Shown: piece after piece, positions 328-15,729 of the stretch
Layout: every line of letters begins with the position of its first letter
How positions within the stretch are numbered: the first letter of the stretch is position 1
Source of the DNA: a virus
Direction: 5' to 3' (one strand)
IMG/VR virus record: IMGVR_UViG_3300020281_001603
Location: 1-22,056 of that record
DNA: 22,056 nt
Position numbers and translations under genes: made by a program
The notes under the pieces: generated by a model
Told to the model about the DNA's origin: nothing
What the model saw: only the letters and a program-made list of their open reading frames with translations
The model's database searches: none

Positions 328-636
328 CTATGTTAATGCCGCTATTCTTAATTTAAAAGCCGCAAAGTCGGCACTTGCCGCAACCTCTGTTTTTAAAACA
401 TCTAATTTTATGTATCCTGGTATGTTACCATTTACAGCGTCAACCAATACTGTGGAATCATCTGCAAATACAGAACCTTTTATATCACCAACAGTTACCC
501 CAACACCACCTGTTAGATTGTCAACTTTTAAATATAACTCGTTAAAATTATCGTTTATCTTATCAAAAGCCGTTCTTAATGGTTCACCGTCACCTTTGTT
601 TGCACTCGATCCTATGTTTATTATCTGTTTAGCCAT
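328..636 (-). CDS. Short fibre-module protein sharing the N-terminal module of the giant fibre
   Basis: This is a 102-residue protein. ATG 636 overlaps the TAA of the 2125-residue fibre gene by one base (TAATG), and an AGGT ribosome site lies inside the end of that gene. Residues 1-36 (MAKQIINIGSSANKGDGEPLRTAFDKINDNFNELY) repeat the N-terminal module of the upstream giant protein (MAKQFVNIG...GDGTGDSIRDAFNKVNENFTELY). The second half carries GDIKGSVFADDSTVLVDAVNG, a motif I recognise from T4-like marine phage fibre proteins. Its small size suggests a fibre cap, an attachment adaptor or a truncated paralogue. The role is inferred only from family resemblance and position between two fibre genes. 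Confidence 0.8.
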   Translation of the reverse strand: MAKQIINIGSSANKGDGEPLRTAFDKINDNFNELYLKVDNLTGGVGVTVGDIKGSVFADDSTVLVDAVNGNIPGYIKLDVLKTEVAASADFAAFKLRIAALT

Positions 637-3600
637 TATAATTTACCTACCACTATTTCTATTTCACCAATTTCATCTCTGTCATAACTTTGTAATGCTT
701 TACCTATGACTGTTCCTAATTTAGGTTCTTCACTTGCTGTTGCCACACCATTTTGTTTTGACGTGACCAACATATCACCTTTTCTAATTTTACCAATTAC
801 TCTGCAGAATACTCTTCCCATCATCGCAAGTTCTACACTGTTCTCAGAATTCAATTTGTTGTTCATCAAGTACGCAGGTTTTTGTGAAACAACACCAGCG
901 ACTGCCTTGTTGTTTTCACCAATTGATATTGTAACTTCTTCTGGACCTCCAAACATCAATACCGTTCCTGGTTGATAGTTATGGTCCGCAACAAATTTTT
1001 CCGCCAAGTCAGCATACTGAGCCTGAGTAGCCGTTCCATCGAACACTGTCGCGTACATTGTGTTGAATCTATTGCTAGAGTCACCCATGTTGATATTTGT
1101 TGCCGCATTACCACCTGCTCCACCTGGAATTAATGCGTGTGGTGTTGCAATCACAGTGGTTGTTCCGCCTGCAACTAAACCTATCTTACCTTCAGTTGAG
1201 TCATCATAATCATCAATATATGTACTACTGTTACCGAACACTATACCTGTGAATGATGTTCCTTTTGCACCGTCCTCAATAGTTTTTGTGTAGATGTAAT
1301 CACTTGCTATTGCCGGAATTGTGTTAACACCAGATCCTGCGTCGTTACTTTGACTTGCAGAAGCATCTGCTCCGCCAAATCCAAATTGATTACCTGAGAA
1401 AGTGTGTACCGTGTTGTTCGCAGTTGAACCTATAACTTCGTATGCAACAACTCCACCTTGCGTTGTTAATCTTACTTTGCTCGAATCTACGTCAAATGCT
1501 GTATTGCCATTCAATGCCAATTTTGCTAAATCTATCTGGCCATCTGCATCTGTTTTTACAATACTATTTGCTTCTCTAGATTTTGTTACATTAGAGAAAC
1601 CATATGTGCCTGCGCCAGTTTTAATTAATGCTTCTCCTGGATCAGCCGCCTGTGCAACTTCTACGCCAAAGTCACCGTCAACAATACCACCACCGTCAGT
1701 TACAACGGAACTGAATGATACAGCAGTGGCATCTCCTGTGCCTGCTGTTGTTCTACCTATGACTTGGAATTGATCTAAATCAGGTAAGTCAGCATAGTCA
1801 ACACCTGTTGCCGATAATGTTACCCAACCGTCTGTTACTGTGAAATCTCCAGAATCGAAACTTGCCAATCCTAAATCTGCTTGAGTGATACCTGTAGAGT
1901 TCGCTCTTGTTGTCGCGGCGTTCATTGCCAACTTGCTTTGTTGTATTGCCGCTGATGGACTTATATCAGCATTAATGATTGAACCTGTTGCAATATCAAA
2001 TGTTAGTTTTGTAGCAGTCGCATCTCTGTCTGCTGTGATTGTTATATCCGATGATCCCTGTACAACAGCATTTCCTATTGCCGGTATAGCCGCGTCAAAC
2101 ACTGTCGCCGTTACACCACCACCGTTGTCAATAGTGTCAACGGTATTGAAATTTGTACCACTTGTCAATGTGTAAGTTATTCTTGTTGCAATACCATACA
2201 CTGGAATACTTGCTTGTACAAAATCTATAATTGTTCCTGTTGCTCCACTGTTTGATCCTGTGATAGTTTGACCTGAACTGAAAACTCCTCCGTTTGCAGG
2301 AGTAGTGTACATAATGAATTTGCCATTGAACATTAATAAGTTACCAGCCGCCAATGGTGTGATAAAGTCTGCGTCTCTGTTGTCGCTTATCTGATCAGTT
2401 GCGTAGTTTACAGCATCAACATAAGATTTAGTTGCGGCATCTTGATCCGCTCCTGGATCTGCTAGGTTGTTAATATTGAATCCACCTAAACTTAAAGAAT
2501 TTGTTGCTGGTGTTGTTCCATCTCTTGCTATCGCACCTGCTCCGATTGGATTAGTTACAACCTGCCCTTGATGATCAAAGTGTAATCTTCTGTTTACGTA
2601 TCCTCTTACCGCTGACTCTGTTGGCACCGTGTCTGACGCATTGTCAGTCATCGCTGAGTCAGAACTGAATTCTGCAACGACAACACCACGTTTGAATCCT
2701 ATACCATCTAAATTACTTAAAGCAATTGAAGCCGAGAACGTAACCGTTCCTGTACCTTGGTCAACTGTGAAGAATCTACCTACTCTAAAGAATCCATCTT
2801 GGTCAGTGGACACATAGAACACTCTACCTTTTCCAATTTCAACAACTTCATTTGCTTGTACTGGTGCTTGTGGGTCTCCGTAAATTACATTTGGATAATT
2901 TGTTGTATTGAATCCACCTGTACCAATGTCTAGGAAGTCATGACCTGTTGCTCTCATTGTTGAAATAGAAACTGTCAATGTTCCTGTTTCGTTGTCAGCC
3001 AGGTTTGCTCTTAGGTTTACACTTGTTGACGCTCTATACATGGTGCTATGGATACCCGAGCCAACTGGTGTTGGTTGAATGTTGTTTACATCTTGGATTG
3101 TTATCGTACCATAAGTGGTTCTGTCTGTGTAACTTGTGATTCTGTGGACTTTTCCGTCCCAACCAAATATCATATCACCGTTGTTCAATCTTGCCACATC
3201 ACTTGCTTGAGTCACTCTGTCTATCGCGATTACAACGTCACCTACTGTGGCACCCATTGTAGTTCCTGCACCCGCATATGTATTGTTTTGTGCTTCAGTC
3301 ATGTTCACGTTCATCTTGACTGTGTCGTATGGTGAATCCATTGTGATCAATGCTTCGTTGGCACCTAGTGCAGTACCAATTGGATCTGTATTTCCAAATG
3401 CTATTGATCTGTAAATTGCGTCTGTGTATTCATCAAACACAATCGCTGTGCTTGGTCTTGTTGGTGCAACGTCATTTACGTTTTCAAATCTAAATGCTCT
3501 ACTGTTTCTTATCGTAACAGCCTGCATATCGGCAACTGCCGCTTTCAATCCTGTACTTGAAGTGGTGTTGGAACCTGCTGTAGATAAGTTTACTTTGTAA

Positions 3601-6600
3601 ACAGTTCCACTTCTAGTCGCTGGTTGTATAGGTGCATTTGTAGTTTCTATGTTAGATATTTCGTATCTCACTATACCAATTGATCCACCGTGATCAATCT
3701 CTACTTCACCTAAGTTGAATGGAATATATTCTGTGTCGAACACATAAATTGCTGTGGCATCTGTGTTCTGTGCAAAATCTGTTGTGCCAGGATTGTAAAT
3801 TAATCCTGTTTGTGTCATGTTGTCAGCAAGTGTGATATTGTCTATCAGTTCGTTTGGATTAGATCCTTCCGCTTTCAATCCAAAGTTACCGTTCGCACAA
3901 GAAGAATTTAATGAACGTATCTGACCACCGTTGTTTGCGAACATACCAGTTTCACAATAGTAAGTGAAAGTTGAAACTTGTTCTGACAATGCACCGTTGG
4001 TAACAACAAGTCCATAACCTAAGTCGTTGACCTGTGTATAATCATTTGCTAGTAATGATCTATTACCACCTGTTTGTATTACAATATTGTATGGTGTGGA
4101 ACCTGTGTACCCATTACCACTATTGGAATCACTGCTTAATAAAATTTGTGCCGTTCCATTTGCTTGATCGTAATTTTTAATGGCTGTGACTTGATATCTT
4201 ACTCCTGCAATATAGAATGGAGCAGGCAGTTCAGGTTTTCTAATGTATAATCCTTGCCCTGCTGTACTTGTTATGTCTAATGTGAATGCATCTACTTTGT
4301 TGCTGATAGTCACTTCTTGATTTCCAACGAAACCATCTACCAACATACCACCTCTGAATAATTTTTTATTTTCTACTCTACTGAATGAAGCACCTGTCTG
4401 TATGTAAGGTGATTTAGTTAATATCTGTCCTTCAGGATCGAGCACCTGTGCAAATCCACCATGTCCTTGAATAGTCATGTTTCTAATAATGGTTGCGTCG
4501 TTCATTAAGAACACGTCCATATCAGCATTGTTTTTCTTAGCACTAGAAGAATTTGTTACATCTGTTAGATAATGATAACCATAGTTCTGTGATGCAAGAG
4601 TTAAACTGTCGAAAGTTGTATCTCTAAAGAAGTGTATTCCCGCCCATATAGATTCTGAAACACCTGTTTTAGGTCTTACAATAGTTCTTCTAAACTCGTC
4701 ACCCTTGATTGAAACGTTTGCAGGAACTCTGATAGGTAAATGTTCTTCATATATACCTGATTCAACATGGATAGTAATCTGTGTTGTCTTAACTTTGTTT
4801 CCGAATTCAACTTCTTCTGATACTTCGAATTCTTTGGGTTCCAACAAGAACATTTCCAACGTGTCATTGGTTGCACCTTGGTCAACCTTGATAAGCAATC
4901 CTAATGCACCAGAAGTTTTACCACGTAAAACTTTTCCTGGTACTAAATCTTTGTTACCTGTGGCGTTCTGGTCAACGTTTCCATTACCACCATTTGAGAT
5001 AGTGATTGTGTATGTGCTTCCGTCAGTTTGTGAAACATTGTAATTGTAATTGTTTATCAAGTTTGTGATTACATCAAATTTAGCCGCCGCACTATCTTTT
5101 GCCGCTTGATCAACTGTGCCTGCGAAACTTGTGTCTTGTGAAACAACTTCAGGATAAACTTTATTTCCTAACGAACAACTCCATGTAATATTAGCAACCT
5201 GTACAATATCTCCAACCACTGCACCGTGTGGTGAGACTGTTGTAACGGTAACTATACCTGATGCGTTGTTGTAAGTCGCTGTTGAAATATTAATTGTGGT
5301 TGCGCCTACTGTGACTGTACCACCACTGACGTAAGTGTGGACGTAATCGTTTGCTCCTGTGAATATTGTAAATGTGTTTGCACTTAACCCGTCGGACAAT
5401 ACTGCAAATTTGCCTTGATAAGTTGATGCAGGTGTTGTTTTGTTTAAAACGTTTGCTGTTACAGTTTTTGCGTATGCAATCGCCGCCAACGTTTCTGTTC
5501 TCTGTTGATTGATTGCTTTCAAACCACTGTTAGAACTGTAATATCTTTTTCCTGCCTGAATGGCATGGAAGTTTGCCGTCAGTCCGTTTGATACGTCAGT
5601 TACTATCGAGTCTTGTATTAAACCTAAATCTAATTTACATCTACTTACATTGTAAAAATATGTTGGGTATGTATTGTTTAGATAACCAATTACTTCATTT
5701 GTTATAAATGATTTGTTAGCCGCCATACCTGCTCTCAATGCCGTTTGTGCCGCCGAGAATGAATTCGTTACTGCCGCTGTTGAAATTGTGGAATTAGTTG
5801 CACCACTTCCGTAAGTTACAGTCTGTTGATATGGTCCTGGTTCAATTGGAGATGTTTCAATTAGTTGCTGTGCTCTTTCACAAGCCTTCGCTATTGTTTT
5901 GTATGCATAACTTAATGATCTACCAAATTTATCTGCCGGTACACCAGACATTGTATCGTCACCATTTGTGCTAACAAATAAATTTTTTGTAGAAGCATAA
6001 CTTGTATTATCCACATAATATTTTGTAGCCGCTTGTAAATCGTCTTGTGAGTTAGGAGTTCCTGCTCCTGCTAGGTCACCTGGGTGATCACTTAGGAACA
6101 AGTTACCAGTCATCTTGTCACCTTGACGTCTAACTGCGGATTGTCTCTGTATTGCTTCTGTGCTTAGATAAAAACCATCTAATGAACTATCATATTCATT
6201 GTCTACGATAGTTTGTGTTCCTGATCCACCGCTTACTGTGATTTTTACTCTTGTTGCGTCATTATTATTAGTCGCTTCAGATTTAGTTGAGTGTAAACTA
6301 ATATAATTTGCATCAACAAATCTAATATAGTAAACTTGATTGTCTGTTAAGTTTGTAGCCGCTGAACCTGTGGTTTTATATTTAAATGCTAAACCATTGG
6401 AAGCATTTGAAAATCCGTGTGATGGAATATTTAAATTTCCATTTTGAAATTGTGTAATTGTTTTTGTGTAGTCTGTTGCGTTTGCCGGTTCGGATCTAAC
6501 TCTTATTTCACCTAAGGTTCCTGTACCGCCTGAACTTGCAAGGTAATTTAAGTCTGCATATCGTTTTGTTATTACAACATCATCTAATGAAATATTAGTT

Positions 6601-7013
6601 CCGTGTGTAGTGTTGTAATCATTTACTGCATTCTGATCTATGCCGACGTTTGCGATAGCGAAACTATTTGCATTAAGTGGACCACCTAATCCTGGTGTTG
6701 TGTCTGAAGCAACAGAAGTTCCTGTAACCGATAATTGGATGTTGTTTGGATCTGAATTTAAATCTACTGCTATACCTGTTCCAGTGATGCCACGCATCGT
6801 GATTGCGTTGCCCGCCGAATTAGATACAGGAATTTTATTCGATCCTAATGTGTTAGGAGTGTCGCTTAATGAAGTGAAACTGATTTGACCACCTTGACCA
6901 AATACTGCATACAGTTCTGTGAAGTTTTCATTTACCTTATTAAAGGCGTCTCTGATACTATCACCCGTCCCGTCGTTTCCTTCTATTCCAATGTTTACAA
7001 ATTGTTTAGCCAT
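636..7013 (-). CDS. Giant tail-fibre/adhesin structural protein, 2125 residues
   Basis: This is by far the largest gene in the window. Residues 1-36 form the attachment-type module also found in the next gene. An AATKYYVD-type fibre motif occurs near residue 329 and again, as AATKSYVD, in the second half. FVSTNGDD...G.S..YA.KTI near 346-375 and IHVESGIYEEHLPIRVPANV near 748-767 are the entry motifs of a right-handed beta-helix (pectate-lyase-like) domain. A later block containing GRVFYVSTDQDGFFRVGRFF is strongly characteristic of structural proteins in T4-like marine phages. Residues 2000-2125 form a compact C-terminal domain starting YADLAEKFVADHNYQPGTVL. It probably makes a long fibre or adhesin that contacts the host surface. 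ATG 7013 overlaps the stop of the Fe-S carrier gene by 8 bases (ATGGCTAA), implying translational coupling. No catalytic residues could be assigned to the beta-helix. Confidence 0.9.
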   Translation of the reverse strand: MAKQFVNIGIEGNDGTGDSIRDAFNKVNENFTELYAVFGQGGQISFTSLSDTPNTLGSNKIPVSNSAGNAITMRGITGTGIAVDLNSDPNNIQLSVTGTSVASDTTPGLGGPLNANSFAIANVGIDQNAVNDYNTTHGTNISLDDVVITKRYADLNYLASSGGTGTLGEIRVRSEPANATDYTKTITQFQNGNLNIPSHGFSNASNGLAFKYKTTGSAATNLTDNQVYYIRFVDANYISLHSTKSEATNNNDATRVKITVSGGSGTQTIVDNEYDSSLDGFYLSTEAIQRQSAVRRQGDKMTGNLFLSDHPGDLAGAGTPNSQDDLQAATKYYVDNTSYASTKNLFVSTNGDDTMSGVPADKFGRSLSYAYKTIAKACERAQQLIETSPIEPGPYQQTVTYGSGATNSTISTAAVTNSFSAAQTALRAGMAANKSFITNEVIGYLNNTYPTYFYNVSRCKLDLGLIQDSIVTDVSNGLTANFHAIQAGKRYYSSNSGLKAINQQRTETLAAIAYAKTVTANVLNKTTPASTYQGKFAVLSDGLSANTFTIFTGANDYVHTYVSGGTVTVGATTINISTATYNNASGIVTVTTVSPHGAVVGDIVQVANITWSCSLGNKVYPEVVSQDTSFAGTVDQAAKDSAAAKFDVITNLINNYNYNVSQTDGSTYTITISNGGNGNVDQNATGNKDLVPGKVLRGKTSGALGLLIKVDQGATNDTLEMFLLEPKEFEVSEEVEFGNKVKTTQITIHVESGIYEEHLPIRVPANVSIKGDEFRRTIVRPKTGVSESIWAGIHFFRDTTFDSLTLASQNYGYHYLTDVTNSSSAKKNNADMDVFLMNDATIIRNMTIQGHGGFAQVLDPEGQILTKSPYIQTGASFSRVENKKLFRGGMLVDGFVGNQEVTISNKVDAFTLDITSTAGQGLYIRKPELPAPFYIAGVRYQVTAIKNYDQANGTAQILLSSDSNSGNGYTGSTPYNIVIQTGGNRSLLANDYTQVNDLGYGLVVTNGALSEQVSTFTYYCETGMFANNGGQIRSLNSSCANGNFGLKAEGSNPNELIDNITLADNMTQTGLIYNPGTTDFAQNTDATAIYVFDTEYIPFNLGEVEIDHGGSIGIVRYEISNIETTNAPIQPATRSGTVYKVNLSTAGSNTTSSTGLKAAVADMQAVTIRNSRAFRFENVNDVAPTRPSTAIVFDEYTDAIYRSIAFGNTDPIGTALGANEALITMDSPYDTVKMNVNMTEAQNNTYAGAGTTMGATVGDVVIAIDRVTQASDVARLNNGDMIFGWDGKVHRITSYTDRTTYGTITIQDVNNIQPTPVGSGIHSTMYRASTSVNLRANLADNETGTLTVSISTMRATGHDFLDIGTGGFNTTNYPNVIYGDPQAPVQANEVVEIGKGRVFYVSTDQDGFFRVGRFFTVDQGTGTVTFSASIALSNLDGIGFKRGVVVAEFSSDSAMTDNASDTVPTESAVRGYVNRRLHFDHQGQVVTNPIGAGAIARDGTTPATNSLSLGGFNINNLADPGADQDAATKSYVDAVNYATDQISDNRDADFITPLAAGNLLMFNGKFIMYTTPANGGVFSSGQTITGSNSGATGTIIDFVQASIPVYGIATRITYTLTSGTNFNTVDTIDNGGGVTATVFDAAIPAIGNAVVQGSSDITITADRDATATKLTFDIATGSIINADISPSAAIQQSKLAMNAATTRANSTGITQADLGLASFDSGDFTVTDGWVTLSATGVDYADLPDLDQFQVIGRTTAGTGDATAVSFSSVVTDGGGIVDGDFGVEVAQAADPGEALIKTGAGTYGFSNVTKSREANSIVKTDADGQIDLAKLALNGNTAFDVDSSKVRLTTQGGVVAYEVIGSTANNTVHTFSGNQFGFGGADASASQSNDAGSGVNTIPAIASDYIYTKTIEDGAKGTSFTGIVFGNSSTYIDDYDDSTEGKIGLVAGGTTTVIATPHALIPGGAGGNAATNINMGDSSNRFNTMYATVFDGTATQAQYADLAEKFVADHNYQPGTVLMFGGPEEVTISIGENNKAVAGVVSQKPAYLMNNKLNSENSVELAMMGRVFCRVIGKIRKGDMLVTSKQNGVATASEEPKLGTVIGKALQSYDRDEIGEIEIVVGKL

Positions 7014-7356
7014 TTACTTTTTCCAAATCGAACTGAATGCTTTCTCCACAACCGCAACTGCTTTTTGCGTTAGGATTTTTGATATCAAAATGTGAACCCC
7101 ACACTTCATTAACATAATCCAATTCAGTTCCTAATAGGTACATTACACTATGGCTGTCTACAACTAATCTTCCACCTTCTGTTTCAATTAGTTCGTCGTT
7201 GTCCTGCATTTCACCTTGATCTGCAAAACCCCAATCATAGGAAAAACCTGCACAGCCACCGCCTTTTATGCCTAAACGCACTGCCCACTTATTATTGTTT
7301 GAACACAGTTCTTTAATCTTCTTTTCTGCTGTGTCAGTCAATGTCATTATTGGCAT
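7006..7356 (-). CDS. iscA: A-type iron-sulfur cluster carrier (IscA/ErpA/HesB family)
   Basis: The product has 116 residues, the usual length for the family. It carries all three cluster-binding cysteines: C35 in GGGCAGFSYDW and C101 and C103 in SSCGCGES. A-type carriers accept [2Fe-2S] or [4Fe-4S] clusters from the assembly scaffold and hand them to target enzymes in the cytoplasm. The start was placed at ATG 7356 (MPIMTL) because an AGGAC site lies about 9 bases upstream; the longer reading adds an untypical hydrophobic leader. A late-type CATAAATA octamer lies 23 bases upstream. The gene overlaps the giant fibre gene by 8 bases, so the carrier is probably made at the same time as virion proteins. 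Clients are unknown; the phage NadA is one candidate, and a fibre protein is more speculative. Confidence 0.93.
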   Translation of the reverse strand: MPIMTLTDTAEKKIKELCSNNNKWAVRLGIKGGGCAGFSYDWGFADQGEMQDNDELIETEGGRLVVDSHSVMYLLGTELDYVNEVWGSHFDIKNPNAKSSCGCGESIQFDLEKVNG

Positions 7357-7379
7357 AATTTTTTGTCCTATTTCATTTG

Positions 7380-7387
7380 TATTTATG
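7380..7387 (-). promoter_or_regulatory. Late-type promoter (CATAAATA) for the iscA-giant fibre operon
   Basis: Read on the minus strand the octamer is CATAAATA, matching the NATAAATA consensus used by T4-like phages with the gp55-type late sigma factor. It lies 23 bases before ATG 7356, leaving room for the AGGAC ribosome site. Assignment is by motif and position only. Confidence 0.55.
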
Positions 7388-7406: not shown

Positions 7407-7414
7407 TGTAAATA
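7407..7414 (+). promoter_or_regulatory. Possible degenerate late-type promoter (TGTAAATA) for the zinc-ribbon gene
   Basis: The octamer differs from NATAAATA at one position and sits 5 bases before ATG 7420, which has no clear Shine-Dalgarno sequence. The spacing resembles the sod and 293-residue fibre promoters. The match is weak and could be chance in AT-rich DNA. Confidence 0.25.
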
Positions 7415-7419
7415 AGTAT

Positions 7420-7707
7420 ATGTTTAAAGGTGAAAAACAAATAAAAACTGAATCAATCCGTAAGAGTAAACTGGGCAATAAGCACAAATGCACTAGGATA
7501 AAGACAATATACTTGTTTCAATGTGATAGTTGTGGTAAAGAGTTTGAAAGGGCGAAAGGTAAGATAGAAAAGAAAAGACTTACTAACTTTTATAAACACG
7601 TGTGCCACTCATGCAATCCAAAGAAATTTGCTCAACAACAAGGTGTCAAACAAAGACAAGTTCTTAGAATGGACGCATCAAGCGACACACCTATAAGTTC
7701 ACTTTAA
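7420..7707 (+). CDS. Small zinc-ribbon protein, 95 residues, unknown function
   Basis: This is one of only two plus-strand genes. The start was set at ATG 7420 (MFKGEKQIKT) because the upstream extension is hydrophobic and would run into the divergent promoter region. The protein is basic and has two paired cysteines, C35-x2-C38 (CDSCGKEFER) and C62-x2-C65 (CHSCNPKKFA), the spacing of a treble-clef or zinc-ribbon fold. A further cysteine at position 24 is available. The C terminus ends RMDASSDTPISSL, a tail I recall from hypothetical proteins of T4-like marine phages. The zinc ribbon suggests nucleic-acid binding, but no function is known to me. It diverges from iscA across 63 bases and converges with a small membrane-protein gene whose stop codon abuts its own. 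Confidence 0.75.
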   Translation: MFKGEKQIKTESIRKSKLGNKHKCTRIKTIYLFQCDSCGKEFERAKGKIEKKRLTNFYKHVCHSCNPKKFAQQQGVKQRQVLRMDASSDTPISSL

Positions 7708-7881
7708 TTATTCTGATTTCCAAATAGTCCAAGCACCGTAGGCAATCGCTCCGTATGCCACTATACTTGCTATAGGTTTGAAAATTAAAAAGGCAATACC
7801 CGCACCAATAAGAATTGCTCCGTCAAGAGTAGTTCTTTCTTTGATCCTTGCATTGATCCATTTTTGTACTGATGTTATCAT
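7708..7881 (-). CDS. Small membrane protein, 57 residues
   Basis: The start at ATG 7881 is supported by a strong AGGAGG site 7-8 bases upstream. The 57-residue product begins MITSVQKWINARIKERTTLD and then has about 34 hydrophobic residues (GAILIGAGIAFLIF, then ASIVAYGAIAYGAWTIW) split by a Lys-Pro near residue 35. This suggests a two-helix membrane hairpin with a basic, cytoplasmic N terminus. The gene follows the sod stop codon by 11 bases, so it is probably cotranscribed with sod and uses a ribosome site overlapping the end of that gene. No family name can be given. It resembles the many tiny inner-membrane proteins of T4-like marine phages. Its stop abuts the stop of the plus-strand zinc-ribbon gene. 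Confidence 0.82.
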   Translation of the reverse strand: MITSVQKWINARIKERTTLDGAILIGAGIAFLIFKPIASIVAYGAIAYGAWTIWKSE

Positions 7882-7892
7882 TGTTTTTCCTC

Positions 7893-8444
7893 CTATGATA
7901 GTCTTTGATTAATTTGTTCCCAATCAATAATTCTCATCATGCTTTCTACATATTTCTTTTTAGCATCTTTGGCAGGAATGTAATCCATAAAAGAATGTTC
8001 CCACATATCAATTGGCATCAATATATCTGTTTTGTAAGATTGGTTTGGAGTTTTCTTTATCGATCCATTTCGTGCCATGTATACCCAACCAGAACCTTGT
8101 ATGCTCATTGCCATTCTTAACATTTCTTTTTTAAATGCATCAAATGTTTTATGATTTTTTTCAATTAATTCTTTAACTGCACCACTAGGTTTGTTTGATG
8201 GTGTTGGTTTACGTAATTGACTCCAAAACAAATTGTGAAGTTTGGCACCACCATAATTAAAATCAGGATCACCTTCTCCTTCGTTGTATCTTCTAACGTA
8301 TGCTTTTGTTAAAACATTGTAATGATAGTCTACATTATTTTTAGACAGTACAGGAGATAGATCGCCTAACTTGTAAGGTAGTTTAACAACTTCAAGTTTG
8401 TCTTCGCGATTTTTCTTCGCTTCAGTAATTTGATCGTATTTCAT
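7893..8444 (-). CDS. sodA: Superoxide dismutase, Fe/Mn family (Mn-type)
   Basis: This 183-residue protein aligns along its whole length with Fe/Mn superoxide dismutases, which convert superoxide to hydrogen peroxide and oxygen in the cytoplasm. All four metal ligands are visible: H41 (DYHY), H70 (KLHNLFW), D146 and H150 (IDMWEH). The active-site tyrosine Y49, the GSGW motif at 117-120 and the substrate-channel region are also present. A glycine lies four residues before H70 and a glutamine at 135 (PNQ), the arrangement usual in Mn rather than Fe enzymes. Unusually, the conserved KHH that follows the first ligand is replaced by VLT (residues 44-46), so the second-shell His30 equivalent is missing. 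No Shine-Dalgarno sequence precedes ATG 8444; an AATAAATA late-type motif sits 6 bases upstream. Confidence 0.92.
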   Translation of the reverse strand: MKYDQITEAKKNREDKLEVVKLPYKLGDLSPVLSKNNVDYHYNVLTKAYVRRYNEGEGDPDFNYGGAKLHNLFWSQLRKPTPSNKPSGAVKELIEKNHKTFDAFKKEMLRMAMSIQGSGWVYMARNGSIKKTPNQSYKTDILMPIDMWEHSFMDYIPAKDAKKKYVESMMRIIDWEQINQRLS

Positions 8445-8450
8445 ATGCTG

Positions 8451-8458
8451 TATTTATT
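8451..8458 (-). promoter_or_regulatory. Late-type promoter (AATAAATA) abutting the sod start codon
   Basis: The minus-strand octamer AATAAATA fits NATAAATA and ends 6 bases before ATG 8444. With T4 late-promoter geometry the transcript would start within a base or two of the start codon, giving a leaderless message. No ribosome site is visible. Confidence 0.45.
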
Positions 8459-9537: not shown

Positions 9538-10253
9538 CGCCAGTTTTCCTTACACCAAGGATCTTGACAGTTTCCAGGCTGTGGATCTCCGTGAAATACT
9601 GCGATAGAAGTTTCAGGTTTAATGTTGGGAACACCAGGACTAATAAAATCTCTTATTCCATCTTGTCTTCTGTGCATAGGCGGACGGTTACGCATTTCCC
9701 ATTTATAACTCATTATCCATTCATCGGGCCAAAATTCAAAGTCTTTTGTGTTGAACACTTGTGAATATAACCAATCTTGATCTCCATGGAATCTTCTTAC
9801 TTGCGTTGGTGCTGTCTTTATGAAGTCATTATAAATTTGTGGATGTTGACCTATCTGCCATCGTACCACACTGCTGTTAAATTTTTGCCATTGGGGATTT
9901 GCTGATCTATTGAAATCTCTTATCACACAAAATTTTCCTTCTTTAAAAGAAAATAATTTGTCTATGTTCCTAAAAACAATTACATCTAAGTCCATATAAA
10001 GGATTGTGTCTCCAGGAGCACCGATTGGATTATTTGGATTGAACAGTAAAGGTTTGTGCCACCAGCCTTGAACTCCATATGCACCGGTAAGGTCCATAGT
10101 TCTAATGCTGTTGTTTAAGCCTGTTGTATCTTCAGTGTAACAAATAAATTCGAACGGCACGGTGCTATTCCTTCGCACCATCTGTTCTAGTGTGTTAACG
10201 TAGTTCGGACCGTATTTGTTTCCGTGTTTTAGACAAATTAAAAAATTAGACAT
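9534..10253 (-). CDS. Glycosyltransferase-like protein (GT-A fold with DxD motif)
   Basis: The 239-residue protein starts at ATG 10253 (MSNFLICLKHG), whose first 8 bases (ATGTCTAA) overlap the end of the queD-like gene. Features of GT-A glycosyltransferases are visible: an N-terminal segment with ICLKHGNKYG, a YMDLDVIVF motif whose D88-x-D90 would bind metal and nucleotide sugar, WWHKPLLF just before it, GDQDWLYS near 157-164 and a late FHGDPQP at 220-226. It probably transfers a sugar from a nucleotide-sugar donor. The acceptor (DNA base, virion protein or host surface glycan) is unknown. It sits next to a QueD-like enzyme and a GT42/DUF115-like protein, which hints at a joint modification pathway, but the link is inferred from position only. 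Confidence 0.82.
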   Translation of the reverse strand: MSNFLICLKHGNKYGPNYVNTLEQMVRRNSTVPFEFICYTEDTTGLNNSIRTMDLTGAYGVQGWWHKPLLFNPNNPIGAPGDTILYMDLDVIVFRNIDKLFSFKEGKFCVIRDFNRSANPQWQKFNSSVVRWQIGQHPQIYNDFIKTAPTQVRRFHGDQDWLYSQVFNTKDFEFWPDEWIMSYKWEMRNRPPMHRRQDGIRDFISPGVPNIKPETSIAVFHGDPQPGNCQDPWCKENWR

Positions 10254-10704
10254 TATCAGTATTATGGTACACAGCACTATTAGAGCCATGTTCAAATACT
10301 TCAACACTTGCTAATTTAACTCTCTTGGCTGTTTCATTACTTATTTGCGGAGCCACATAATTGAATACGTGTTCTGCAAATTTTTCACAACCAACACCGT
10401 TCATCTCAACAACCTTAGCAAGTCCTTTGCCTTCTAATTGTTTTAAGTCTGCAAGTAATGGATCATTCATGTCCACTGCAAGTGTGTGATCAAAATTGTC
10501 TTCAAGATATTTTTTAATCCATTTACAGTTTCCGAAGTCATATACCCAGTTCTTATCATCAAGATAATCTGCTTCAAAAGTAAATTTGAATCCTAAACTG
10601 TAACCGTGAATTAATGAACAATGGCTGTGAGTCGCTTTAGGTTGTCTGAACGCACAACTGAATCCTCTATCTGTGCCATATGTTTTAGTACTTTGATGTT
10701 TCAT
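10246..10704 (-). CDS. queD: QueD / 6-pyruvoyl-tetrahydropterin synthase-like protein
   Basis: This is a 152-residue member of the T-fold QueD/PTPS family, which acts on 7,8-dihydroneopterin triphosphate in pterin or 7-deazaguanine synthesis. Conserved elements are C29-x3-HG (HCSLIHGYSL, catalytic Cys then zinc-binding His33), the WVYDFG segment with D56, FDH (D72, H73) and E138 in VFEHGS near the C terminus. The canonical HGH zinc motif is HGY, and the usual first zinc His in the FSAAH segment is Phe (FSCAF). The extra THSH at 25-28 may supply the ligands. This is the divergent phage subgroup, so the exact product is uncertain. ATG 10704 has a strong AAGGAG site and a consensus promoter about 60 bases upstream. 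The glycosyltransferase follows with an 8-base overlap. Confidence 0.85.
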   Translation of the reverse strand: MKHQSTKTYGTDRGFSCAFRQPKATHSHCSLIHGYSLGFKFTFEADYLDDKNWVYDFGNCKWIKKYLEDNFDHTLAVDMNDPLLADLKQLEGKGLAKVVEMNGVGCEKFAEHVFNYVAPQISNETAKRVKLASVEVFEHGSNSAVYHNTDNV

Positions 10705-13901: not shown

Positions 13902-14132
13902 TCAAGATTTTTTTGTTTTATTTCTCTCTAAAAGTATCTGTTTTGGAGTTTTTGCACCTGGTGATAACTTCATAAGTCTTAGGCTTAATAACTTTTTAGG
14001 ACCTTTGCTTGTAATAATAACTGGTTGTCCGTGTTCGTCTACCTCTATTGCTCTGACAGTAGTCATGACGTTTCTAAAACGTCCAACTTCAACCTTATCA
14101 CCTACTTTGATATCTAATGTGTAACTTTTCAT
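13902..14132 (-). CDS. Small beta-barrel (KOW/Tudor-like) protein, 76 residues
   Basis: ATG 14132 overlaps the stop codon of the oxidoreductase gene by one base (TAATG); an upstream in-frame TTG is less likely. The product ([19 protein letters not shown]...) reads as a run of short beta strands: VGDKVEVGRF, TTVRAIEVDEHG, QPVIITSKG, KKLLSLRLMKLSP. A basic tail ends LERNKTKKS. The pattern is that of KOW- or Tudor-like barrels, which often bind RNA, DNA or protein, but no family name is certain. It is the last gene of the overlapping series that begins with the AAA+ ATPase; a 37-base gap follows. Confidence 0.78.
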   Translation of the reverse strand: MKSYTLDIKVGDKVEVGRFRNVMTTVRAIEVDEHGQPVIITSKGPKKLLSLRLMKLSPGAKTPKQILLERNKTKKS

Positions 14133-14773
14133 TATGCCCACCAACTTATTTTTTTCTTCTTGTTTGGATTTAAACTCCTTGCAAGTTTTCTTACTCTATT
14201 CATATGACTGTCAAATTCCTTTTTATCCATGCCAGGTAACACAGAATAAAACCTTATATACTTCGTAACCATGCCACCCAAGTTAAACACTGCCTTTTTT
14301 ATTCTTCTATAAGGAATATTATCAAATAAACTAAAATTAAAATAGGTCACCATAGGTCCACCGTATGTGATTGATATCAATCCTAATTTACCATTCATTG
14401 CTCCAGGCACCGGATATCCATAGTTCTTAAAAAATTTACTGCCAGGCACCAATGCTCTATAACTGAAAAACCATTTAGGGTGTAGTACCCAGTCAACCCA
14501 ATTTTCCAGTATTGATGGCATCCTTAAATTGTGGCATGAACCAATTAGGAACATAACGTCACTGTTTTCTAATCTTTTCCTATAATCCAATACCAATTGA
14601 GGTGGTGGATTTATATCTGAATTGTAAAATGGTAATTGTTCCTTTTCATCAAACAAATTAATCAAATCGATTTCGTGTCCACATTTTTCTGCTTCTTCGA
14701 TAAAGGTATCTCTGATAGCGGCATTGAAACTGCTTTTAGTGTTGTGATGTCCATATATTATGCAAATCTTCAT
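14132..14773 (-). CDS. Flavodoxin-fold NAD(P)H oxidoreductase-like protein
   Basis: The 213-residue protein matches the flavodoxin-like NAD(P)H quinone oxidoreductase group (NQO1/MdaB/KefF type), which reduces quinones or similar acceptors by two electrons using FMN or FAD. Visible signatures are [20 protein letters not shown] at the N terminus (phosphate-binding loop), the [11 protein letters not shown] strand and loop, and [29 protein letters not shown] (residues 73-101), which corresponds to the P-x-x-LK-x-W-x-D region of the family. The C terminus is basic ([12 protein letters not shown]). ATG 14773 overlaps the nadA stop by 4 bases (ATGA), so the two are translationally coupled. A shared role in NAD or redox metabolism is an inference from that coupling. 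The substrate is unknown. Confidence 0.82.
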
Positions 14774-15729
14774 TTTACCTCAATCATTCTTTTTATAGAT
14801 AATCTTGCTTTATCCATCACTGCATCAGTCAGTTTAACTTCGTCTGTTCCGTTTGTTAAACTATTATAGATTCCTTGCAAAGTAATTTTTTTCATATACG
14901 GACATAAATTACAAGGTTTAATCATTTCGACATTGGGATTCTCAATAGCGACATTGTCACTCATAGAACATTCCGTAACCATCAAAACCTTCTTAGGTTG
15001 TTTGTCTCTCACGTAGTTACTCATCTTAGAAGTTGATCCAGTGTAGTCTGCTTCTGCTACAACTTCTGGTGGACACTCTGGGTGTGCTAATACAACTATG
15101 CCAGGATAGTTTTTTCTGTATTCTCTAATTTCTTCTGGCGTAAATCTTTCATGCACTATACAAGTTCCGTGAAATGTGATAATCTTCACTTTAGTCTGTG
15201 CGGCAACGTTCTTGCCTAGATACTCGTCTGGTAAAAATATAACTTTGTCTACACCCAACGACTCAACTATCTCTACTGCGTTAGAACTTGTACAACATAT
15301 ATCCGTCTCTGCTTTTACATCTGCTGATGTGTTTACATAAGAAACAACTGGCACACCAGGATATTTTTGTTTTAAAAGTCTTACATCCTCTCCTGTAATA
15401 GATTCAGCAAGTGAACAACCTGCCGACATATCAGGTATCAATACTTTCTTGTCAGGATTTAATATCTTAGCCGTTTCAGCCATAAAGTGTACACCACACA
15501 TTATAATGACGTCTGCTTTTGCTTTCTGTGATTCTTTTGCAAGTTTTAATGAGTCTCCAACTATATCGGCCACACAATGATATATTTCTGGAGTCATATA
15601 ACTATGTGCCAGTATCACTGCATTCTTTTCTTTTTTAAGTTTATTAATTTTTTCAATCAAAGGTTCATGCACTGCCCATTCTACTTCTGGAATAAACTTG
15701 GCTACCTTTTTGTATAATTCATTATTCAT
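14770..15729 (-). CDS. nadA: Quinolinate synthase NadA
   Basis: The 319-residue protein is a full-length NadA, the [4Fe-4S] enzyme that condenses iminoaspartate with dihydroxyacetone phosphate to quinolinate in de novo NAD synthesis. Family motifs run in order: [20 protein letters not shown] (39-58), [14 protein letters not shown] (77-90), AGCSLAES (C105), [15 protein letters not shown] (129-143), [22 protein letters not shown] (C190), [15 protein letters not shown] and [10 protein letters not shown] (C276). Cysteines 105, 190 and 276 have the expected spacing for the cluster. Start ATG 15729 overlaps the previous stop by 4 bases. No nadB or nadC is in the window, so aspartate oxidase and the phosphoribosyltransferase must come from the host or elsewhere in the genome. 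It lies in the same gene chain as DNA ligase. Confidence 0.97.

Follow-up and report, generated by a model that had tools for sequence, protein, structure and literature searches.

A conserved A-type Fe-S carrier gene between a T4-late-type promoter-like element and the tail-fibre gene of uncultured marine phages

An uncultured marine phage carries an iscA-like gene, encoding a predicted A-type Fe-S carrier, in the slot between a T4-late-type promoter-like element and the gene for a giant tail fibre (Table 1). The window analysed here is the whole of a 22,056-nucleotide stretch from IMG/VR record IMGVR_UViG_3300020281_001603. The pairing of iscA with the fibre gene is old, real and conserved, and the link is positional rather than obligatory. 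We assign a probability of about 0.72 to the reading that the carrier serves the Fe-S enzymes of the phage, and possibly those of the host, late in infection, from the promoter slot of the fibre gene. Purifying selection on iscA, its recurrence in the same slot, the occurrence of empty slots, its relocation in one clade and the Fe-S genes co-encoded by these phages all favour this reading; against a pure slot view, the long-lived adjacency to the fibre gene and its often coupling-like geometry exceed what a promoter slot needs. In the proposed mechanism, the phage carrier would take up clusters made by the ISC or SUF system of the host and pass them to apo-enzymes in the later part of infection. 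The gene would occupy a cargo slot, and the position of that slot, rather than any action on the fibre, would account for the late production of the carrier. As probable clients we propose NadA in this phage and, in its relatives, ferredoxin, radical-SAM enzymes and an Nth-like glycosylase, with host enzymes as possible further candidates.

Table 1. Positions of the iscA-like gene and of associated features in the 22,056-nucleotide window
Feature	Position	Strand	Remarks
Next gene of fibre unit	328..636	minus	102 aa in window; abuts fibre stop
Giant tail-fibre gene	636..7013	minus	2125 aa; PHROG tail fibre 7.5e-50; kept downstream of iscA
iscA-like gene, predicted A-type Fe-S carrier	7006..7356	minus	116 aa; ATG 7356, TAA 7006
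Overlap of iscA stop and fibre start, ATGGCTAA	7006..7013	minus	exactly 8 nt
T4-late-type promoter-like motif, CATAAATAC	7379..7387	minus	upstream of iscA; conserved in relatives
Candidate divergent promoter element of plus-strand gene, GTAAATA	7408..7414	plus	kept as TATTTAC, other strand
Small zinc-ribbon-like gene, divergent	7420..7707	plus	two CxxC pairs (alignment); ATG 7420; landmark beside slot
TM57, small membrane protein	7708..7881	minus	directly precedes iscA in relocated clade
Fe/Mn superoxide dismutase-like (SOD) gene	7893..8444	minus	ATAAATA just upstream at 8451-8457
NadA, quinolinate synthase, [4Fe-4S] enzyme, candidate client	14770..15729	minus	NCBIfam equivalog 1.1e-111

The initial annotation had described the iscA product as an IscA/ErpA-type carrier with all three cysteines, had placed the gene at the head of the fibre operon and had noted an 8-base overlap with the fibre gene, and each of these claims is borne out. 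The product matches the Pfam Fe-S_biosyn profile (E=3e-20; 72.9 bits, cut-off 26.3) and NCBIfam TIGR00049 (106.2 bits, cut-off 58.8). Its predicted ligand cysteines (C35, C101 and C103) do not vary among the aligned phage relatives and show the arrangement of A-type carriers, with one cysteine in GGGC and two in CGCG, and dN/dS values of 0.14-0.34 indicate purifying selection on the reading frame. With bacterial ErpA, IscA and SufA the phage carrier has in common the Fe-S_biosyn fold family, the three cysteines and the GGGCxGF and CGCG motifs, and the nearest solved structures are HI1723 (2apn) and IscA/YfhF (1r94). It differs from the bacterial carriers in scoring below every NCBIfam equivalog cut-off (ErpA, 105.3 vs 117; SufA, 100.4 vs 136.2; IscA, 93.2 vs 150.6), and its best bacterial matches have 42-48% identity. 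Phage IscA sequences also stand apart in a tree from the 18 bacterial sequences sampled, and a cultured-phage collection yielded 11 distant IscA matches that added little, several of them bearing labels of bacterial genes (erpA, iscA or Fe-S assembly). By family and ligands the phage protein is thus an A-type carrier, for which cluster transfer is the predicted activity.

The iscA gene is the first of its unit because the divergent zinc-ribbon-like gene on the plus strand divides it from the minus-strand genes upstream. The junction with the fibre gene, whose product has no match in Pfam, measures -8 nt throughout the close clade and from -1 to +14 nt in distant relatives. A shared stretch of 8 or 1 nt is typical of translationally coupled genes, and would suit a role in cis in which the iscA frame is a translated leader that couples or tunes translation of the giant fibre while the protein itself matters little. 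This is the least probable of the explanations that we weighed and one to which we give almost no credence, since the cysteines are invariant, the dN/dS values given above are low, junctions extend up to +14 nt and the fibre gene exists without iscA, with its own start region. The zinc-ribbon-like gene has more than 571 relatives in IMG/VR and no match among 50,697 cultured-phage records, and is a good marker for this uncultured phage group. Elsewhere in the window, a QueD-like gene (10246-10704, minus) overlaps a glycosyltransferase gene and is kept upstream of UvdE in relatives.

The iscA ATG is preceded, at a distance of 23 nt, by the motif CATAAATAC, which is kept in close relatives and slightly varied in distant ones; from the T4 late consensus, we take it to be akin to the T4 late -10 element. 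The positions of ATAAATA were analysed in a relative with a contig of 148,056 bases (L012, hereafter the 148-kb relative). There, 24 of the 32 sites lie within the 80 nt preceding a correctly oriented ORF, whereas permuted heptamers do so at a rate of 11.6% (p ~1e-16), and the same upstream windows contain one ATAAATA site on the opposite strand. The motif is not enriched by raw count relative to a first-order model (minus strand, 30 vs 38 expected; plus strand, 2 vs 22), so it is the placement of the sites, and not how many there are, that supports a promoter; the comparison with the permuted control indicates a genuine promoter-like element. It is found before fibre and baseplate-region genes and also before NrdA and SOD, and is not confined to structural genes. 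Of the late-type promoter claimed in the initial annotation, the element itself is upheld by the motif upstream of iscA and by the positional enrichment of ATAAATA; late timing of iscA expression is probable, given the resemblance to the T4 late -10 element and the places where the motif occurs. Searches with phmmer using gp55 and gp33 of Pelagibacter phage Mosig as queries gave no match in the 148-kb relative. Similar searches from Mosig found no T4-type capsid, sheath, portal or terminase match in the same contig, and PHROGs assigned ten of its large proteins mostly to unknown families; we have therefore withheld the label T4-like from this phage.

The adjacency to the fibre gene proved to be widely conserved and also breakable. 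The iscA-fibre junction recurs in ~77 IMG/VR loci (44 from one set and about 33 added by a second), among which IscA identity falls as low as ~44%, in the order TM57, divergent zinc-ribbon gene, promoter, iscA, fibre; a few iscA-fibre loci are without SOD, TM57 or the zinc-ribbon gene. When the zinc-ribbon gene served as the IMG/VR query, so that iscA played no part in the selection, 80 loci were recovered: iscA occupies the slot in 73, and the fibre gene comes straight after the promoter in 7. A script had first tallied 69 loci with iscA and 11 fibre-direct ones; four of the 11 were reassigned as artefacts of extended iscA ORFs, a PF01521 match being present in three contigs, and L336 was counted with iscA since it has the same neighbour pattern as L335. 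The seven empty-slot loci represent four lineages (L342, L357, L360-L363 and L371), in which the same kind of promoter element stands directly before the fibre gene. PF01521 was absent from the four empty-slot contigs searched, which are fragments of 8 to 86 kb.

In a further clade, represented by seven loci mapped in full and ~25 more assigned from neighbour tables, iscA has moved behind SOD-TM57, where it is convergent with the zinc-ribbon gene, and the fibre gene retains a GATAAATA element. An xTAAATA element stands just before SOD, upstream of TM57-iscA, in all seven mapped loci. In the IscA tree, a quick reconstruction from 111 columns with many unresolved forks, the relocated clade forms one side of a branch with support of 97 and is nested among iscA-fibre lineages, so the relocation looks derived. 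The SOD-like gene, which heads the unit carrying iscA in this clade, seems by eye to have the usual His, His, Asp, His metal ligands. The pairing is old and common, yet iscA can be absent or moved, and the gene therefore most likely serves phage and host enzymes late in infection and does not load the tail with iron; lineages with an empty slot or a relocated iscA act as natural controls by which metabolic and virion hypotheses can be told apart. In other phages, iscA adjoins iscU, paaD-like, Nfu or ferredoxin genes. The iscU-iscA pairs among these (L026, L027 and L162) contain the same carrier family, at 44-48% identity, and differ from the window in that the scaffold gene iscU is adjacent and no fibre gene is present at the junction; IscU was not found in the records searched from the window clade.

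The initial annotation had also suggested that the carrier might supply a virion protein with iron or a cluster, as imagined in the 'Ferrojan' proposal. Under such a scheme, the fibre or some other protein of the tail would receive iron or a cluster from IscA, or IscA would itself be packaged, and the retention of the iscA-fibre overlap and order over great divergence, together with the promoter common to both genes, is what would be expected. However, HxH motifs are absent from all ten fibre homologues compared, among which a single cysteine is invariant, so the fibre has no visible metal-ligand set and a cluster or iron site in it is unlikely. Furthermore, none of the minus-strand ORFs from structural regions in the 148-kb relative combines four cysteines with a CxxC, four lineages have the fibre without iscA, and iscA lies outside the fibre unit in one clade. 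The suggestion is thus unsupported, and we regard a virion role as highly improbable. The same low standing applies to the variant in which the junction has been kept since the carrier acts in virion assembly, either by loading a non-fibre tail component with iron or a cluster or by being packaged. The window resembles systems with iron-binding Ferrojan tail fibres (e.g. PMC11705849) in having an iron-handling gene beside a fibre gene, and differs from them in a fibre that has neither HxH motifs nor a conserved cysteine set.

Maturation of a late Fe-S enzyme is the best supported of the three options originally put forward, and the overall interpretation is supported in this part and unsupported in respect of virion iron. 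It is favoured by NadA in the window and, further, by FdxA, Nfu, an Nth-like glycosylase and radical-SAM proteins in relatives. Outside the window, the nadA gene was found in the nearest kin alone, and was for this reason rejected as a general client; because most members of the clade are without it, no single client is constant. In the window and these kin it overlaps a flavodoxin-fold reductase gene (14132-15729, minus), and a quinolinate synthase encoded by a phage might serve to increase the supply of NAD or to oppose an NAD-depleting defence. A close relative of the window (G002) encodes NadA and an Nfu-domain protein, and another genome (G001) encodes an FdxA ferredoxin, a radical-SAM protein, heme oxygenase, a ferredoxin-dependent bilin reductase and an HhH-GPD, Nth-like glycosylase with a C6C2C5C pattern. 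Over 24 records, Fer4 was found in 15, radical SAM in 12 (up to 18 matches per record) and Nfu in nine. Ferredoxin (Fer4) is present in 13 of the 14 IscA-positive contigs of at least 67 kb and in none of three IscA-negative contigs, a sample too small for a firm test. One IscA-positive contig of 107 kb (G032) gave no ferredoxin, Nfu or radical-SAM match. Four contigs (L133, L137, L139 and L140) have 16-18 radical-SAM matches each, together with Nfu and ferredoxin, and three of them contain paaD-like genes. The 148-kb relative encodes DnaK, heme oxygenase, a ferredoxin-dependent bilin reductase, an FdxA ferredoxin and an Nth-like glycosylase.

The carrier could instead, in line with the protection of host respiration raised in the initial annotation, be directed chiefly at the host, with late IscA repairing or maintaining the respiratory and metabolic Fe-S enzymes of the stressed cell, so that energy is available until lysis, and the Fe-S proteins of the phage being secondary. 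A SOD-like gene two minus-strand genes upstream of iscA in the window and the inclusion of iscA in the SOD unit of one clade are consistent with such a role, and roles of this kind have been proposed for other viral Fe-S genes (PMC10721903). The richness of the relatives in Fe-S proteins of their own would be unexpected if only host enzymes mattered, and we hold a predominantly host-directed role to be a minority possibility, with something under one chance in five.

A-type carriers in phages have been described previously. In Nishimura et al. 2017 (PMC5332604), 14 environmental viral genomes are reported to have an A-type carrier and the T4-like ones to have further Fe-S genes, and a role with virally encoded Fe-S proteins was proposed. 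The ATC and IscU genes of those marine T4-like viruses resemble the present case in the A-type carrier of a marine phage, the co-encoded Fe-S enzymes and the role proposed; they differ in that no link to a fibre gene or promoter is described in that part of the paper. A literature search combining fibre, Fe-S assembly and Pelagibacter found no paper on the fibre linkage, which, given its incomplete coverage, is weak evidence of novelty.

The retention of an Fe-S carrier in the fibre transcription slot over great sequence divergence is a feature of a large group of uncultured marine phages. Judging from this conserved carrier slot, and from the ferredoxin, Nfu and many radical-SAM genes of the relatives, such infections appear to need a supply of iron clusters at a late stage.
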